From Phragmitibacter flavus (lineage in GTDB: Bacteria > Verrucomicrobiota > Verrucomicrobiia > Verrucomicrobiales > Verrucomicrobiaceae), in NCBI RefSeq assembly GCF_005780165.1, contig NZ_VAUV01000010.1, positions 62,001-126,000 of the forward strand: a stretch of 64,000 nucleotides of DNA, given 5' to 3'. The notes beneath the pieces are model-generated. The model was not told where the DNA came from, did not search any database, and worked only from the letters and a program-made list of their open reading frames with translations. Positions 37,184-46,712 of the stretch are shown in pieces. The position numbers and the translations under genes are program-made. Within the stretch, counting starts at the first letter, position 1; the number at the start of each line of letters is the position of its first letter.

Positions 37184-37257
37184 CATTGTTGGGCAAGAGG
37201 GAGTCCGTCTTATCGGTGAACCCTGAGTTTCATACGATGAAACGTTGCGGCGAATCC

Positions 37258-37274
37258 TTGGCATGGGCAGTGCT
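37258..37274 (+). promoter_or_regulatory. Candidate sigma-54 promoter (-24/-12)
   Basis: TTGGCATGGGCAGTGCT has GG and GC dinucleotides exactly ten bases apart, as in the RpoN consensus TGGCACG-N4-TTGC, with mismatches at TGGCATG and GTGC. It would start transcription about 60 bases before the substrate-binding protein gene. RpoN control is common for nitrogen-scavenging operons. No activator site was identified. Confidence 0.35.
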
Positions 37275-37333: not shown

Positions 37334-38323
37334 ATGCTGAAAAGATATCTGCTTAAAGTCGGTCTCACCATGTCCCTCGCGCTTGCCTGCTCAGCATTTC
37401 ACGCGATGGGTGCCCCTTTGAAAATCGGATATTCAGACTGGCCGGGTTGGGTGGCCTGGGAGATTGGCATCAAAAAAGGCTGGTTCAAGGAAGCGGGGGT
37501 TGAGGTGGAGTTTGTGTGGATGGATTACGTGAAATCGATGGAGGCTTATGCGGCCGGTCAGTTGGACGGCGTGACGATGACCAACGGCGACGCCTTGGTC
37601 ACGGGAGCTACTGGGAAACCTTCGGTGGCAATTGTGATCAATGACTTTTCGAACGGAAACGACATGATTGTGGCGAAGCCGGGGATCGAGTCGTTGAAGG
37701 ACATGAAGGGCAAGACCATTGCGCTGGAAGAGGGATTTGTGGAGCACCTGTTGTTGCTGAAGGGCCTTGAGTTGAATGGAATGGCGGAAGGCGACATCAC
37801 GATCAAAAACACGCCGACCAACAGCACCCCCCAGGTGTTTGCTTCCGGTGAGGTGGATGCGATCGGGGCATGGCAACCGAATTCGGGGCAGGCGCTCAAG
37901 CTGGTAGCGGGATCGAAGGCGATCTTCACTTCCAAGGATGTTCCCGGATTGATTTATGATGCGCTGTATGTGGATCGCGACAGCCTGAAAAGTCGTCGTG
38001 AAGAGTGGCTGAAGGTGGCCAAGGTGTGGAACAAAATTGTCGAATACATGGCGGATGACGACAATCTTGATGATGCACTGGAAATTCTGGCGGGTCGTGT
38101 GGGAGTCACTCCTGCGGAATATGAGCCGTTGCTTGCCGGAACCAAGCTGTTAAGTGCTGAAGAGGCGCTAAAAGTGTGGGAGAAAGCGGACGGTTTGGGG
38201 TCGATCTATGGATCTTCAAAAGTGGTGGATGACTTCAATGTGAAGTTTGGGGTGTATGCCAAACCCGCAGATATCGCCGCTTACATCGACCCTTCCATCG
38301 CGAAGGAAGCGTTGGGCAAATAG
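37334..38323 (+). CDS. ABC transporter substrate-binding protein, NitT/TauT type (guanidine/urea-linked)
   Basis: Periplasmic solute-binding protein of 329 residues. Signal peptide [20 protein letters not shown]. The mature part has the NMT1/NitT fold: [58 protein letters not shown] and [15 protein letters not shown]. The opening [11 protein letters not shown] is typical of members found next to urea-carboxylase genes. It should deliver guanidinium or a related compound to the permease encoded five bases downstream. AAAGGA eleven bases before the ATG is a fair ribosome-binding site. Confidence 0.88.
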
Positions 38324-38328
38324 GCAGC

Positions 38329-39864
38329 TTGGATGGCAAACCCCACCCACCCTCTCCTGTTGTGGCGACTTCTTCTGGCAGACATTGGTTTGGGGTCCGC
38401 AAGGATTTGGATCAGCAGCGCAGTTCGCTGTTGATGGCGCTGTCCTTTTTGCTGCCGCTGCTGATTTGGTGTATCGCCTCCTACGGCCCCTGGTGGGAGG
38501 TGGCTCACCAAGTGCAGATCTCTGCGGAAAGTCCGCGTTTGCAGAGCATCTACATTGTGGGCAACCGGCTCGAACCGGGAACCTGGGAGGAGTTTCAAAA
38601 CGCCATCAAGCTGGACAATGAAGAGATCTTGAAGGCGAAAGAAAGCCGGACGCCATTGGAAAGCAGCACGCGGCAGAACAAGAAGGTGCTGCGGCAAATT
38701 TATCAACCTGCCATGATCAATGGCTGGCTGGCACGCGGTCAGGAAACGGATGATGAGGCCATTCGACAAGTATGGTTGAAACTGGCGGCGGGGGAGCTGA
38801 CGGCAGGCAGACAGGAGATCTCCAGTGAGAACCTCGAGATCGTCAAGGAGAACGCGAAACTTTTGCAGGCATCAGGTGCAGAGTGGCCGACGCAATCATT
38901 GTTGAAATTGTTGCCTGAGGCATCGGAGGAAGTGGCGAGGCCGGTGTATCTGGTGCCGCCGGATGTGGTGGCGACGTCGTTCTGGAAAGGCATTACGGCA
39001 ACCAAGCCGGAGGCGACCGAATCTGGGGATGAGGGGGCGATGAAGAAGACCTTGCTGGAGAGATATGCAGAGTCGTGGCGAACGATTGTGCTGGGGTTTT
39101 TGCTGGCGATCGTGATCGCGGTGCCGCTAGGCTTGCTGGCGGGGACTTATGATTTTTTCTCCAAGCTGTTTGAGCCGTTCGTGAATTTTTTCAGTTACAT
39201 GCCGGCTCCGGCTTTCGGGGTGGTGTTGATGGCGATCTTCGGGTTGGATTCTGGTCCGAAGATCATGCTGGTGTGTTTGGGCACTTTGCCAGGAGCGGTG
39301 TTGATGCTGGCAAAAACGACGCGGCGGCTTGATGGGGCATTGCTGGAGGCGGCGCAAACCTTGGGGGCGAATCAGCGTCAGATGCTGGCGAATGTGGTGG
39401 TGCCGGGAGTGTTGCCGAATTTATACAATGACTTGAGGCTCCTATTCGGCACGGCCTGGACCTGGTTGGTGATTGCGGAGTTGCTTGGGTTTAAAAGCGG
39501 ACTGGCTGAGGTGATCGATACCCATGGACGACGGTTTCAATTTGAGATCGTTTATCCTGCGATTTTGATGATTGGGCTCTCGGGTTTCATTATGGATCAA
39601 TTGCTCGGATTTTTAGGACGGTTTTTCTTTCCATGGGTCGACCAGCCTGCGCAGGGTTTCTTGGCTTCGATCTCCAGCAAGATTGCCGGTGGTTTGCGTC
39701 GTTTGACGGCAACCAAAGAAGCAGCACCAACCGCCACCGCGGCCATCGAAGCAGAAGAGGCCGCCAAGGCAGCCCTGACTTTGCAAAGCACCGAGCCTCC
39801 TGAAGAACCTGAAGAAGAATCCGAGGCCACGCTTGGTGCCGTCGCGAAAAAATCTGAGCCATGA
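38329..39864 (+). CDS. ABC transporter permease with large periplasmic insert
   Basis: Permease of the BPD_transp_1 family, up to 511 residues versus about 260 for ordinary NitT/TauT permeases. After the first helix ([19 protein letters not shown]) comes a hydrophilic insert of roughly 170 residues, then five helices with the EAA-type loop [20 protein letters not shown] and [15 protein letters not shown], and an Ala/Glu-rich cytoplasmic tail of about 60 residues. The open frame begins with TTG 38329; GTG 38362 and ATG 38434 are alternatives. The stop overlaps the ATPase start (ATGA at 39861-39864). Confidence 0.85.
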
Positions 39865-40760
39865 TTGCCACCGTTTCCTATCACGAACAGTCTCCCGCCG
39901 TCAAAGCTCGGTTCGACCGCTTGAAAGCGCGTCCGCATTTGCTGGAAATATCGGGGCTGTATAAACGCTTTCAGTCAAAGGCGGGGGAGGTGACGGCGTT
40001 GCAAAACATCAATTTGAATGTGCATCGGCGTGAGTTCATGTGCGTGCTGGGTCAGTCGGGCTGCGGCAAGTCGACGTTGATCCGAATCCTGGCAGGTCTG
40101 GAGACGCCCAGCGAAGGTCAGGTGCTGGTGGATGGCAAGCCGGTCACGGGGCCTGGACGCGATCGGGGCATGGTGTTTCAAAGTTACTCGTTGTTCCCCT
40201 GGTTGTCGGTGAAGGAGAACGTGATGTTTGGTCCGCGCATGGCGGGCAAGGATCGCAGCACCAATGAGGCCGAGGCACGGCAGTGGCTGGCGCTGGTGGG
40301 CCTCGATAAGTTTGAGGATTCGTATCCGCATCAGTTGAGCGGCGGGATGAAACAACGGGCGGCGATTGCTCGCGCGCTGGCGAATGGTCCGCGCATCCTG
40401 TTGATGGACGAACCGTTTGGGGCGCTTGATCCACAGACGCGTCAGCAAATGCAGGCTTATCTTCTGCAGATTTGGAAAAACATCGACATCACCATTTTCT
40501 TCATCACGCATGATCTGGACGAGGCGATTTTTTTGTCGGATCGCATTCTGGTGCTGGACCCGAGACCGGGAAGGGTGAGGGAGATTGTCGAAGTGCCAGT
40601 GCCGCGTCCGAGAGACCATGAACAATTGCGTTCCCCTGAGTTCCTGGCGACGAAACGTCATCTGGAAACGATCATTCACCCAGAGGACACGCATGAAAAA
40701 CCGCAGTTGGACAAGCTGCCGATGCTGCGCATGACAGAAGCGGGGGATGATGTGGAGTGA
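39861..40760 (+). CDS. ABC transporter ATP-binding protein, NitT/TauT type
   Basis: A 299-residue ATPase energising the upstream permease. Walker [11 protein letters not shown]-loop [12 protein letters not shown], signature LSGGMKQR, Walker [13 protein letters not shown] and H-loop [12 protein letters not shown] are all present. The first 30 residues are an extra basic leader before the domain start [11 protein letters not shown]. Family members import nitrate, taurine, aliphatic sulfonates, urea or guanidine; context favours guanidine. It ends the transporter operon; 93 bases with an operator-like palindrome separate it from the regulator gene. Confidence 0.93.
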
Positions 40761-40795
40761 GTCGATGGTATGAGCATATGACCGTTAAACCGCAA

Positions 40796-40827
40796 TCGTC
40801 ATACTATTCTTGTAAAGAGTATGACGA
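40796..40827 (+). promoter_or_regulatory. Palindromic operator candidate for the NikR-like regulator
   Basis: TCGTCATACT and AGTATGACGA form a perfect 10-bp inverted repeat with a 12-base spacer, 26 bases before the regulator ATG. The half-site contains TCATAC/GTATGA, the sequence bound by E. coli NikR (GTATGA-N16-TCATAC), though here the arms point the other way with a 14-base gap. This supports autoregulation and control of the genes downstream. Confidence 0.65.
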
Positions 40828-40853
40828 GAGGAGTTTCGGTGTTACTTTAGGTC

Positions 40854-41372
40854 ATGCCAGTCACATCGCCTACACCACCACCGACGGAAGTCAGCGTCAG
40901 CTCCCGGCAAAGCGAAAATGTTCAGCGGATCACCATCTCGTTGCCCGACGAGTTGTTTCGTCAGTTCGAAAACATGCTGGAGGAACGTGGTTTTGCCAAT
41001 CGTTCCCAGGCAATCTCGGAGATCTTGAATCAGCACATTTCAGACTACTACAGCTTCAAGGGCAATCGTGTGATGGCGGGGACCCTGACCTTGCTTTACG
41101 AACATCGCAAACCTGGCTTGATGCAGCAGCTGGCGGACATTCAGCATCATCATGTGAACGAGGTGATCAGTTCTTTCCGGGTGTTGCTGGAAAATCATCA
41201 CACCATGGATGTGATCCTGATGCAGGGACCGGCGAATGTGTTGCGTGCGATCACCAATCGTTTTCTTGCCTGCAAAGGCGTGCAGGCGGGGCGGCTCAAT
41301 CTGACGCGCACGGTGATGCCTCCAATTCACGCGAAGCATGGCGGTGTCGAAGCGTCCACGGCGGAAGCTTGA
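40854..41372 (+). CDS. NikR-like ribbon-helix-helix regulator lacking nickel ligands
   Basis: A 172-residue repressor-like protein. An extra N-terminal tail of about 22 residues is followed by an RHH DNA-binding domain (VQRITISLPDELFRQFENML, RGFANRSQAISEILNQ) and a NikR-type ACT-like domain (AGTLTLLYEHRKPGLMQQLA, QHHHVNEVISSFRVLLEN). Aligned without gaps to E. coli NikR, ligand H76 is kept (H98) but H87, H89 and C95 become R109, L111 and T117. High-affinity nickel binding is therefore unlikely. Lying between the transporter and the UAAP/carboxylase genes, it probably senses the pathway substrate or product. Confidence 0.85.
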   Translation: MPVTSPTPPPTEVSVSSRQSENVQRITISLPDELFRQFENMLEERGFANRSQAISEILNQHISDYYSFKGNRVMAGTLTLLYEHRKPGLMQQLADIQHHHVNEVISSFRVLLENHHTMDVILMQGPANVLRAITNRFLACKGVQAGRLNLTRTVMPPIHAKHGGVEASTAEA

Positions 41373-41407: not shown

Positions 41408-42129
<722 letters not shown>

Positions 42130-42133
<4 letters not shown>

Positions 42134-42762
42134 TCGAGTCGACTTATCAATCAACCCATGCGGTGCATGACGAGGTGGTGCTCGCGGGCGATCACTGGGT
42201 GCATGAGATCAAGGCGGGACAAACGTTTCGCATTGAAGACCTGGAGGGGAATCAGGCGGCGGACACGCTGTTCTACAACGCGCATGATCCGGAAGAACGT
42301 TACAGCGCGAGCGACACGATTCGGGTGCAGCGGGCGTTGTATTTAAGCACGGGAACGAAGCTGATTTCCAATCGCGGGCGGACCATGTTGACCATCACGG
42401 CGGATACTTGTGGCAGACATGATACCCTGGGCGGGGCGTGTTCCAGGGAGAGCAATGTGATGCGGTATGCGTTTGATCGGGAACCGATGCATGCATGCCG
42501 GGACATTTTTATTCGCGGCATCCAGTGCTGGTGCCATGACATGAACAAGCGTGATCTTGCGTGCAACATCAATTTCTTCATGAACGTGCCGGTAACGCCG
42601 GAAGGTGGACTTAGTTTTGCGGATGGGGTTTCCGGTCCAGGGAGATATGTGGAGATGAAGGCGGAGATGGACGTGATGTGTTTGATCTCCAACTGCCCGC
42701 AGTTAAACAATCCGTGTAACGCCTACAACCCTACACCAGTGAGGGTTCTTCTATGGGAATGA
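42130..42762 (+). CDS. DUF1989 protein UAAP2, carboxyguanidine deiminase subunit
   Basis: A 210-residue partner of UAAP1. The family core is almost fully conserved: [84 protein letters not shown] and [20 protein letters not shown]. The histidines and cysteines in these motifs are candidates for metal or catalytic roles. Overlaps on both sides (UAAP1 by four bases, SMR gene by ten) show tight operon organisation. Older annotations linked it to urea degradation; the guanidine role comes from later work on the family. Confidence 0.93.
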
Positions 42763-43082
42763 TCAGCTGGATCTATTTGCTGTCGGCGGCGGTGTTCGAG
42801 GCGATGTATGGCATTGGCCTGTATTACTCGAAAGGGTTTACCGTGTTATGGGCTTCGGTGTTTGCCGTCATCTCGGGCATCGCCACGACCATTCTGCTTG
42901 GCCTTGCGATGAAGGGTTTGCCGGTGGGTGTTTCTTTTGTGGTGTGGAGTGGACTGGCGGCGGTGGGAACGGCGATTTATGGGATGACCGTGCTGGGGGA
43001 ATCGCATGGAGCGATACGCATCTCGATGATGTTGTTGATCCTGGCAGGGGTGGTGGGGCTGAAGTTCAGCAGCGCTTCATAG
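42753..43082 (+). CDS. SMR family transporter, Gdx (guanidinium exporter) type
   Basis: A 109-residue four-helix small multidrug resistance protein. The first helix has the proton-coupling glutamate ([19 protein letters not shown]), and [20 protein letters not shown] matches the Gdx subgroup pattern PIGTAYAIWTGIGALGA of guanidinium exporters more than the EmrE subgroup. Gdx proteins exchange guanidinium for protons and keep internal levels tolerable. The gene overlaps UAAP2 by ten bases and is followed after 39 bases by the carboxylase, so import, breakdown and export genes are co-located. Confidence 0.87.
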
Positions 43083-43121: not shown

Positions 43122-46100
43122 ATGTCATTTTCAAAAGTGCTGGTTGCCAATCGTGGTGAGATTGCCTGTCGTGTGATCCGGACCCTCAAGAAGCTGGGGA
43201 TTCAGTCGGTGGCGGTGTATTCGGAGGCGGATCGTGAAGCGCCGCATGTGACGCTCGCGGATGAAGCTTATTTAATTGGTCCGGCGGCGGTTTCGGAAAG
43301 TTATCTGAGGTTTGAGAAGATCATTGCGGTGGCGAAACAGACCGGGGCCCAGGGGATTCACCCGGGCTATGGATTGTTGAGTGAGAATGCGGGCTTTGCG
43401 GAGGCTTGTGAGGCAGCGGGGATTGAGTTCATTGGGCCGACGCCGAGGCAGTTGCGGGTGTTTGGATTAAAACATTCGGCGCGTGAACAGGCGGTGACCT
43501 GTGGGGTGCCTTTGGTGCCGGGAACGGATTTGTTGAAGTCGGAAGAGGAGGCTTTGTCGGAGGCGGCGAGGATCGGTTACCCGGTGATGCTGAAGAGCAC
43601 GGCGGGCGGTGGCGGGATTGGCATGCGGCGTTGTGATGATGCGGATGCGTTGTCGGCGGCGTTCGCTTCGGTGGTGAGGCAGGGGACGGCGAGCTTTGGA
43701 GACGGAGGCGTGTTCTTGGAGAAGTTTGTGGTGAATGCCCGGCACATTGAAGTGCAGATGTTTGGAGATGGAAAAGGAAGGGTGCTGGCGTTGGGTGAAC
43801 GTGATTGTTCGACGCAACGGCGCAACCAGAAGGTGATTGAAGAGACGCCGGCTCCGAACATCACGGAAGAGATGCGGCAACGGCTTTGGTCGGCGGCAGT
43901 GAAGCTTTGTGAGTCGGTGAGTTATCGCTCTGCAGGAACGGTGGAGTTTGTTTACGATGCGGATGTCGACGACTTTTATTTTCTCGAAGTGAACACTCGT
44001 TTGCAGGTGGAACACACCGTGACAGAAGAGGTGACGGGGTTGGATCTGGTGGGTTGGATGGTGAGACTGGCGGGCGGCGAGGACCTGGCATTGGAATCGG
44101 TGGAGGTGAAGCGCAATGGTTGGGCCATGCAGGCGAGGGTGTATGCGGAAGATCCGAACAAGGATTTCCAACCTTCGAGCGGAGTGCTCACGCATGTGGC
44201 GTTTCCGGATGGGGTGCGCTGTGATGGTTGGATTGCTTCGGGCACGGAGGTGACGCCTTATTATGATCCCTTGCTGGCAAAGGTCATTGTGCATGCGGCT
44301 TCACGCGAAGAAGCGTTGGCGGCGATGTCAGCGGCGTTGCAGGGAACGACGCTGGCGGGGATCGAGACGAACTTGGAGTATCTCCGGCAGATCTTGAAGG
44401 ATGAACTTTTTGTCAGCGGCAAGATGACCACGCGGGCGTTGGGCGGCTTTGTTTATCGTCCGCGCACATTTGATGTGCTGGCTTCGGGAACGATGACGAC
44501 GGTGCAGGATTACCCTGGGCGCGTTGGTTACTGGGAGGTGGGGGTTCCGCCGTCAGGGGCGATGGATCCATTGGCGTTGCGGGTGGGGAACCGGCTGTTG
44601 GGAAATTCGGAGCGCTCCGCAGGTTTGGAGATGACGATGAGCGGTCCGACCTTGCGGTTCAATGTGGATACCTGGGTGTGTCTGACGGGCGCTTTGATGG
44701 CAAGCACGGTGGATGGCGCAGCGCTGGAGTTCTGGCGTCCAGTGAAGGTGAAGACAGGTCAGATTTTAAAGATCGGTCAGGCGAAAGGGACGGGCTGCCG
44801 TGCTTATTTGGCGATGGCGGGTGGCATTGACGTGCCGGACTATTTGGGCAGCAAGTCGACGTTTACATTGGGCGGGTTTGGCGGACATGCAGGGCGGGCT
44901 TTACGGGTGGGTGATGTGGTGCCGTTTGGTGAATCGGGTGAGGTCATGGTGGATGCGTCGGTGACAGCGCCGAGTTACTCGCATGAGTGGGAGATCGGGG
45001 TGTTGTATGGTCCACATGGGGCACCGGAATTTTTCAAGGAGGAGGACATGGAGATGTTTTTCTCGCAAGCCTGGGAGGTGCATTTTAATTCGGCGAGAAC
45101 CGGTGTTCGATTGGTGGGTCCGAAGCCGAAGTGGGCACGCAGTGATGGTGGGGAGGCGGGGTTGCATCCGTCGAACATTCATGACAACGCGTATGCGATT
45201 GGGGCGGTCGATTTCACGGGGGACATGCCGATCATTCTTGGGCCGGATGGACCGAGTTTGGGGGGATTTGTTTGTCCAGTGGTGGTGGTGCAGGCGGAGC
45301 TGTGGAAACTGGGGCAGTTGCGTCCGGGCGACACGGTGAAATTCGTGCCGGTGGCAGTGGAAACGGCGCGTGAGATGGAACTGGCGCAGGAGTCGGCGAT
45401 TGAAAAATTGACCTCTCTTGATTTGGAGTTGTTGCCGTTGGCGGAGATTCCGAAGAAGAGCGCGGTGTTGTTTATGTTGCCCGCGAAAGATGATCAGCCG
45501 GATGTGGTGTTTCGTCCTGCGGGAGATCATTATCTGTTGGTTGAGTTCGGACCGCTGGAGTTGGATATCTTTTTGCGGTTTTGGGTGCATGCGGTGTATC
45601 TGAAATTGAAGGAACTGGGGTTGGAAGGGGTGGTTGATTTGACGCCGGGGATCCGGTCGTTGCAGATTCATTTTGATGCCAGGCTGCAATCGCATGAGTC
45701 GATGATGAAGGCGGTGGTGGAGATTTGCGAGACGCTGCCCGCGGTGGCTGACATGGAGGTGCCGGCTCGGGTGGTGCATTTGCCGTTGTCTTGGGATGAT
45801 CCTTCGACGCGTGAGGCGATTCAGAAGTATATGGATTCGGTGCGGGCAGATGCGCCCTGGTGTCCGAGCAACATTGAATTCATTCGACGGATCAATGGAC
45901 TTGAGTCGGTGGACGAGGTGATGCGGATGGTTTTTGAGGCGAGTTATCTGGTGCTGGGATTGGGGGATGTTTATTTGGGGGCTCCGGTGGCGACGCCGAT
46001 GGATCCGAGGCATCGACTGGTCACAACGAAATACAATCCGGCCCGGACATGGACTCCACAGAATGCAGTGGGGATCGGCGGGGCGTATATGTGTGTCTAT

Positions 46101-46712
46101 GGCATGGAGGGGCCGGGTGGGTATCAATTTGTTGGACGCACGGTGCAGATGTGGAATCGTTATCAAGTCACCGAGAGTTTTATCGAAGGGCAGCCTTGGT
46201 TGTTGAGATTCTTTGATCAGGTGCGGTTCTATCCGGTGACGGCGGAAGAATTGGTGCAGTTGCGGATCGATTTTCCTCAGGGACGTTTTGTGCCGAAGAT
46301 TGAGGAGACCAGGTTCAAACTGGGTGATTACGAGGCGTTTCTTGAGAAGGAATCGGAGAGCATTGAGGCATTCAGGAACAAGCAGCAAAAGGCTTTTGGT
46401 GAAGAACGTCAGCGATGGGAGGAGGCAGGCATCAATGTCGCGGCGACGATTGAAGAAGTCGTGATTGCGAATGATGAGGTGGCGCTGGCGGACAACGAGC
46501 TGGCGGTGCAGAGCGAGGTGGCAGGGAATCTGTGGAAACTCAATGTTGGAGTGGGGGATCAGGTGGAGGCGGGTCAGACCGTTGCCATTGTTGAGGCCAT
46601 GAAGATGGAGATTCATGTGAACAGCCCTGTTACGGGCAAAGTGACGCGGGTCACTGGCAGGGAGGGGCAGTCAGTTTCGCCGGGACAGACGATGGTGGTG
46701 ATTGCGTCTTGA
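43122..46712 (+). CDS. Urea/guanidine carboxylase, biotin-dependent
   Basis: A 1196-residue enzyme carboxylating urea or guanidine with ATP and bicarbonate. Residues 1-450 are biotin carboxylase ([21 protein letters not shown]-grasp loop [33 protein letters not shown]). Residues about 455-760 match KipA/AHS2 ([20 protein letters not shown]) and about 800-1010 KipI/AHS1 ([15 protein letters not shown]). The C-terminal biotinyl domain has VEAMKMEI with the biotinylated lysine at about residue 1161. Next to UAAP1/UAAP2 and Gdx, guanidine is the likelier substrate. No allophanate hydrolase is fused or adjacent. Confidence 0.94.

Follow-up and report, generated by a model that had tools for sequence, protein, structure and literature searches.

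A NikR-like regulator in a guanidine carboxylase operon

The window that we analysed is a stretch of 64,000 nucleotides from Phragmitibacter flavus (Verrucomicrobiota). It includes a gene for a NikR-like regulator, preceded by the genes of an ABC binding protein, permease and ATPase and followed by those of UAAP1, UAAP2, an SMR exporter and a carboxylase. The genes and the predicted control elements are the following:

37207-37235, no strand: uncertain candidate for a second, weak operator upstream of the ABC genes (2 mismatches, N15)
37259-37274, + strand: sigma-54-like -24/-12 element TGGCATGGGCAGTGCT before the binding-protein gene (9/11, weak alone)
37334-38323, + strand: ABC substrate-binding protein of NMT1/SsuA type (best NCBIfam match TIGR03427, urea-ABC, below its cut-off)
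38329-39864, + strand: ABC permease (domain/family search)
39861-40760, + strand: ABC ATPase (domain/family search)
40776-40845, no strand: row of four half-sites, ATATGAC at 40776, GTCATAC at 40798, GTATGAC at 40819 and GTGTTAC at 40839
40798-40825, no strand: predicted operator dyad GTCATAC-N14-GTATGAC (fits the clade motif without mismatch)
40854-41372, + strand: NikR-like regulator of ribbon-helix-helix type that lacks the nickel site (H76 retained; H87R, H89L, C95T; domain match, alignment and model)
41408-42133, + strand: UAAP1 (DUF1989), carboxyguanidine deiminase subunit (TIGR03425, 304 bits)
42130-42762, + strand: UAAP2 (DUF1989), carboxyguanidine deiminase subunit (TIGR03424, 326 bits)
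42753-43082, + strand: SMR transporter nearest SugE, likely a Gdx-like guanidine exporter (below the SugE cut-off)
43122-46712, + strand: biotin-dependent guanidine carboxylase, annotated as urea carboxylase (Asp at the residues matching K. lactis 1330 and 1584)

A preliminary description of this DNA had placed the regulator in a guanidine cluster with an ABC importer, UAAP1, UAAP2, an SMR exporter and a urea/guanidine carboxylase, and all of these are present. The operon has both DUF1989 subunits of carboxyguanidine deiminase that characterise guanidine carboxylase operons. Further, an alignment shows that its carboxylase has Asp at two sites, 1330 and 1584 in K. lactis numbering, which is the published mark of guanidine as opposed to urea carboxylases (PMC11410670). 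Asp at 1330 was found in 105 of 105 loci with a readable motif, some of them overlapping stretches of one genome, which rules out a urea pathway in place of a guanidine one. Most relatives have allophanate hydrolase inside the guanidine operon, but in P. flavus it sits elsewhere and in two pieces (C2:231836-233454). These pieces (L121:7837-9563 in our locus set) are two overlapping frames, where a pair of successive TGA codons overlaps ATG start codons; the enzyme is a single gene in the relatives examined, and the arrangement in P. flavus is possibly a genuine gene split.

The 172-residue product of 40854-41372 matches NikR_C (PF08753) with 75.6 bits against a cut-off of 22 and also contains an RHH_1 domain. 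It thus has the ribbon-helix-helix DNA-binding domain and the NikR_C domain of NikR regulators, and the DNA-binding part is intact, as the preliminary description had held. Among solved structures it comes closest to P. horikoshii NikR (2bj1, E 1.4e-26); that of E. coli NikR (1q5v) is matched as well. A predicted model (mean pLDDT 73.8) has NikR chains as its best structural matches, while the C-terminal half alone matches NikR first and then amino-acid-binding ACT domains. The nickel ligands of E. coli NikR are H76, H87, H89 and C95 (PMC7055735). An ungapped alignment with that protein places His, Arg, Leu and Thr at these positions (HRLT), exactly the replacements described earlier, so that three of the four ligands are missing. 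The earlier label of paralogue is inexact, because the P. flavus genome contains no second NikR_C protein and this product is its only NikR. Pairs of clade members with unsaturated dS gave dN/dS values of about 0.03-0.17; these lie well below 1, indicating strong purifying selection and ruling out a decaying gene.

A guanidine-linked clade with a lost nickel site

We then compared the regulator with NikR-like proteins of 288 Verrucomicrobiota genomes, 98 of which encode NikR_C proteins and 35 a UAAP2 above the cut-off. Among the 35 genomes with UAAP2, 28 have, in the guanidine locus, a gene for a NikR-like protein whose nickel site is broken, and the other seven have no NikR-like regulator. 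By contrast, none of the 64 NikRs with the complete HHHC site lies in a guanidine locus, about 30 of them being judged on 1.5 kb either side. The contrast between the 28 and the 64 gives a Fisher p of about 7e-22, with genomes counted as independent despite their kinship. There are two exceptions, a 112-residue HHHY fragment in a locus without UAAP2 (L059, genome G132) and a protein with the residues NRTS that has no guanidine genes nearby (L112:3974-4405). The latter represents a second NikR-like kind that lacks nickel ligands and occurs away from guanidine loci; it may mark one more switch of ligand, and its genus has six weak NikR-like matches (G123, G141, G144, G194, G203 and G303).

A scan of named genomes yielded 80 homologues, distributed over Verrucomicrobiota and the Gamma-, Beta- and Alphaproteobacteria. 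UAAP1/UAAP2 or carboxylase genes flank 78 of them and ABC genes the remaining two (L192 and L216). C95 is kept in none of the 80. The other three ligand positions (76, 87 and 89) are occupied variously by R, Y, H, N, Q, S, L and F. Some clade members keep all three histidines (HHHT, HHHY) and might still bind metal weakly. In a tree from which the ligand columns were left out, all guanidine-linked members form one clade, with a support of 99, beside HHHC NikRs; among the sisters that we examined, three (L023, L032 and L034) adjoin CbiM or CbiQ metal importers. The loss is therefore clade-wide and cannot be put down to accidental differences in a single aberrant sequence. Such a survey of NikR-like proteins next to UAAP1/UAAP2 genes had been proposed in the preliminary description, and it extends to the whole clade the tie between a lost nickel site and guanidine operons.

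At the position of E. coli residue 102, all 56 clade proteins compared have Gln, where 46 of 52 canonical proteins have Arg or Lys; as the mark of a new ligand pocket this change is only suggestive. Acidic residues are frequent at positions 81 and 91 in the clade, but since they also occur there in canonical NikRs they are no proof of a guanidinium pocket.

Some other guanidine loci deserve mention. Three of them (L133, L134 and L135) have three DUF1989 genes and no NikR-like gene. Near the guanidine operon of two relatives, Rfam matches to 5_ureB_sRNA (L122:14149-14441 and L123:601-890) probably reflect a urease gene beside the operon. Finally, a guanidine locus on an Acinetobacter plasmid (L052:11305-13531), in which the NikR-like regulator is present, carries a 2-OG/Fe(II) oxygenase and a neighbour resembling the methylguanidine MgdH/MgdL pair.

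A conserved operator of the NikR type

The operator-like palindrome noted earlier upstream of the regulator is real and has a NikR-type format that is conserved in the clade. It spans 40796-40827 (TCGTCATACT-N12-AGTATGACGA, with arms of 10 bp) and encloses the dyad at 40798-40825, which is the only match with at most one mismatch in the 64 kb window and the only match without mismatch in the 5.9 Mb genome. The half-sites of the surrounding row follow each other in steps of 22, 21 and 20 bp, the outer two being weaker. The clade motif, GTAWKAC-N14-GTAWKAC, is spaced like the E. coli NikR operator, with two GTATGA-like boxes 21 bp apart.

A dyad with N14 and at most two mismatches occurs in 23 of 38 non-redundant upstream regions; shuffled sequences gave about 0.4 such regions, and spacings other than N14 gave 0-5. 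Since the motif was derived from these same 38 regions, a wider set weighs more: there, N14 dyads were found in 47 of 80 cases, N15 dyads in 14 and each other spacing in 1-5. This set partly repeats the same genomes, and its proteobacterial sites, before the binding-protein gene, are new. Control of nickel uptake or of nickel enzyme genes, as in NikR, was not found for the regulator of the window, because the only perfect operator in the genome stands at the guanidine operon and 78 of the 80 homologues lie in guanidine operons. Some sister HHHC NikRs (L032, L034 and L042) have the same operator, and the DNA site therefore appears older than the change of ligand. In A. baumannii, operators precede UAAP1-UAAP2-carboxylase, a unit of regulator, allophanate hydrolase and binding protein, and a permease-ATPase unit; judging from these predicted sites, the three transcription units constitute a small guanidine regulon.

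Sigma-54-like promoters and guanidine riboswitches

Elements resembling the -24/-12 promoter of sigma-54 lie within 60 bp of 73 out of 91 operators, compared with 19.7 when the flanks were shuffled. The operator is most often just downstream of the -12 element, in Gammaproteobacteria and others, or just upstream of the -24 element, in many Verrucomicrobiota, and both predicted placements would suit a repressor. The P. flavus genome encodes sigma-54. Beside the operator of the window at 40798 we found neither a clear sigma-54 element nor a sigma-70 promoter; the element upstream of the binding-protein gene has counterparts at the same place in four relatives. A published survey describes sigma-54 control of COG3665 genes in Proteobacteria, 59% of them labelled urea carboxylase (PMC12316311).

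An Rfam search of the window detected no guanidine aptamer, and control by a known riboswitch is thereby ruled out there. Guanidine riboswitches were likewise absent from the 12 verrucomicrobial loci of the wide scan and from three close relatives, and guanidine-I was absent from the 288 genomes of the phylum. In Proteobacteria, on the other hand, 9 of 12 operons have a guanidine-II riboswitch that follows UAAP2 and precedes the carboxylase gene, the same placement as in Vreelandella, where it sits between cgdB and gca (PMC12508155), and in A. baumannii a guanidine-I riboswitch (901-996) lies shortly after an operator at 839. The proposal that the protein is an alternative to guanidine riboswitches thus fits the verrucomicrobial loci searched but not Proteobacteria, where the regulator works beside a riboswitch and is an addition to it.

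Discussion

We consider it probable that the regulator is the repressor of the guanidine operon and is released by guanidine or by a close intermediate such as carboxyguanidine. This reading follows from the link between the clade and guanidine loci, the guanidine-type carboxylase, the conserved operator and the absence of riboswitches from the verrucomicrobial loci searched. The regulator would be a tetramer of the NikR fold, in which the ribbon-helix-helix half would still bind the NikR-type operator, with its two GTAWKAC boxes 21 bp apart, while the ACT-like C-terminal half would no longer use nickel. When guanidine is absent, it would occupy the operator beside or over the sigma-54 promoter and block transcription. 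Binding of guanidinium or carboxyguanidine to the former metal domain would then make it leave the operator, allowing expression of the carboxylase and deiminase genes, and of the importer genes where sites precede them, with the further requirement of nitrogen shortage through sigma-54. The fold, the loss of ligands, the link to guanidine operons, the operator, the sigma-54-like promoters and the purifying selection are all supported by comparison; we infer the identity of the effector, repression rather than activation, and the oligomeric state. Some observations weigh against this reading: seven of the 35 genomes with UAAP2 lack the regulator, the operator at 40798 has no clear sigma-54 element beside it, and the members with three histidines might still bind a metal weakly.

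The same repressor might instead use its ACT-like domain to sense nitrogen status, for example glutamine. The amino-acid-binding ACT domains that come next after NikR among the matches of the C-terminal half would suit such a role, as would the nearby sigma-54-like promoters, which are typical of nitrogen control. In Proteobacteria, moreover, a riboswitch already senses guanidine in the operon, so a second sensor is not strictly needed and the protein could sense something else. We nevertheless regard this as unlikely, because the neighbourhood of a general nitrogen sensor should include other nitrogen genes, whereas the genomic link is limited to the guanidine carboxylase pathway, and because no other guanidine sensor was found in Verrucomicrobiota.

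That metal ligands are gone and drift freely among members, with no replacement pocket evident, would also fit a ligand-free autorepressor that binds DNA constitutively and merely sets basal expression. The C-terminal domain is, however, under purifying selection and varies little from phylum to phylum, with residues such as Gln102 that are fixed specifically in the clade, and we think this explanation quite improbable. We give the least credence to a regulator that still senses nickel or another metal, through remaining histidines or a new site, and couples guanidine use to metal supply. The members with three histidines and the presence of urease, a nickel enzyme, in the P. flavus genome are compatible with it; yet C95 is lost in all homologues, the other ligand positions vary, guanidine carboxylase does not need nickel, no CbiM importer was found in the P. 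flavus genome, and the sole perfect operator of that genome stands at the guanidine operon.

The guanidine-responsive repressor that we favour would share with the NikRs of E. coli, H. pylori and P. horikoshii the ribbon-helix-helix and ACT-like fold, two operator boxes at a pitch of 21 bp (GTATGA-N16-TCATAC in E. coli, PMC7055735) and Tyr60. It differs from them in lacking the nickel site and in belonging to guanidine operons instead of nickel uptake, and most clade members have Gln in place of Glu30, a residue of the potassium site in E. coli. With the guanidine-I and guanidine-II riboswitches it shares operons, which these occupy at the head or, in Vreelandella, between cgdB and gca, and in Proteobacteria both are often present together; the riboswitches are RNA aptamers with measured guanidine binding, whereas the clade regulator is a predicted DNA-binding protein with a proposed ligand. 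MumR of A. baumannii (PMC5050338) likewise regulates an operon with a urea carboxylase-like gene, but it is a LysR-type activator of a different gene set that includes a manganese importer, and as an unrelated protein it is ruled out as kin.

According to a 2025 review, guanidine receptors other than transporters and enzymes are so far known only among riboswitches, and guanidine-binding transcription factors are yet to be found (PMC12186494). Among open-licence papers, our search for NikR or CopG together with guanidine or urea carboxylase returned nothing relevant. A more far-reaching claim would be that this is the first guanidine-sensing transcription factor, present in at least two phyla, with a metal domain rebuilt for guanidinium and an unchanged operator, and that the verrucomicrobial pathway has no other guanidine sensor; to us this seems evenly balanced between true and false. 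The clade offers a concrete candidate for a guanidine-binding transcription factor in culturable bacteria. If the candidate proves true, evolution would here plainly have converted a metal sensor into one for a small molecule while the DNA site stayed the same, and the protein would be a guanidine biosensor ready for use.
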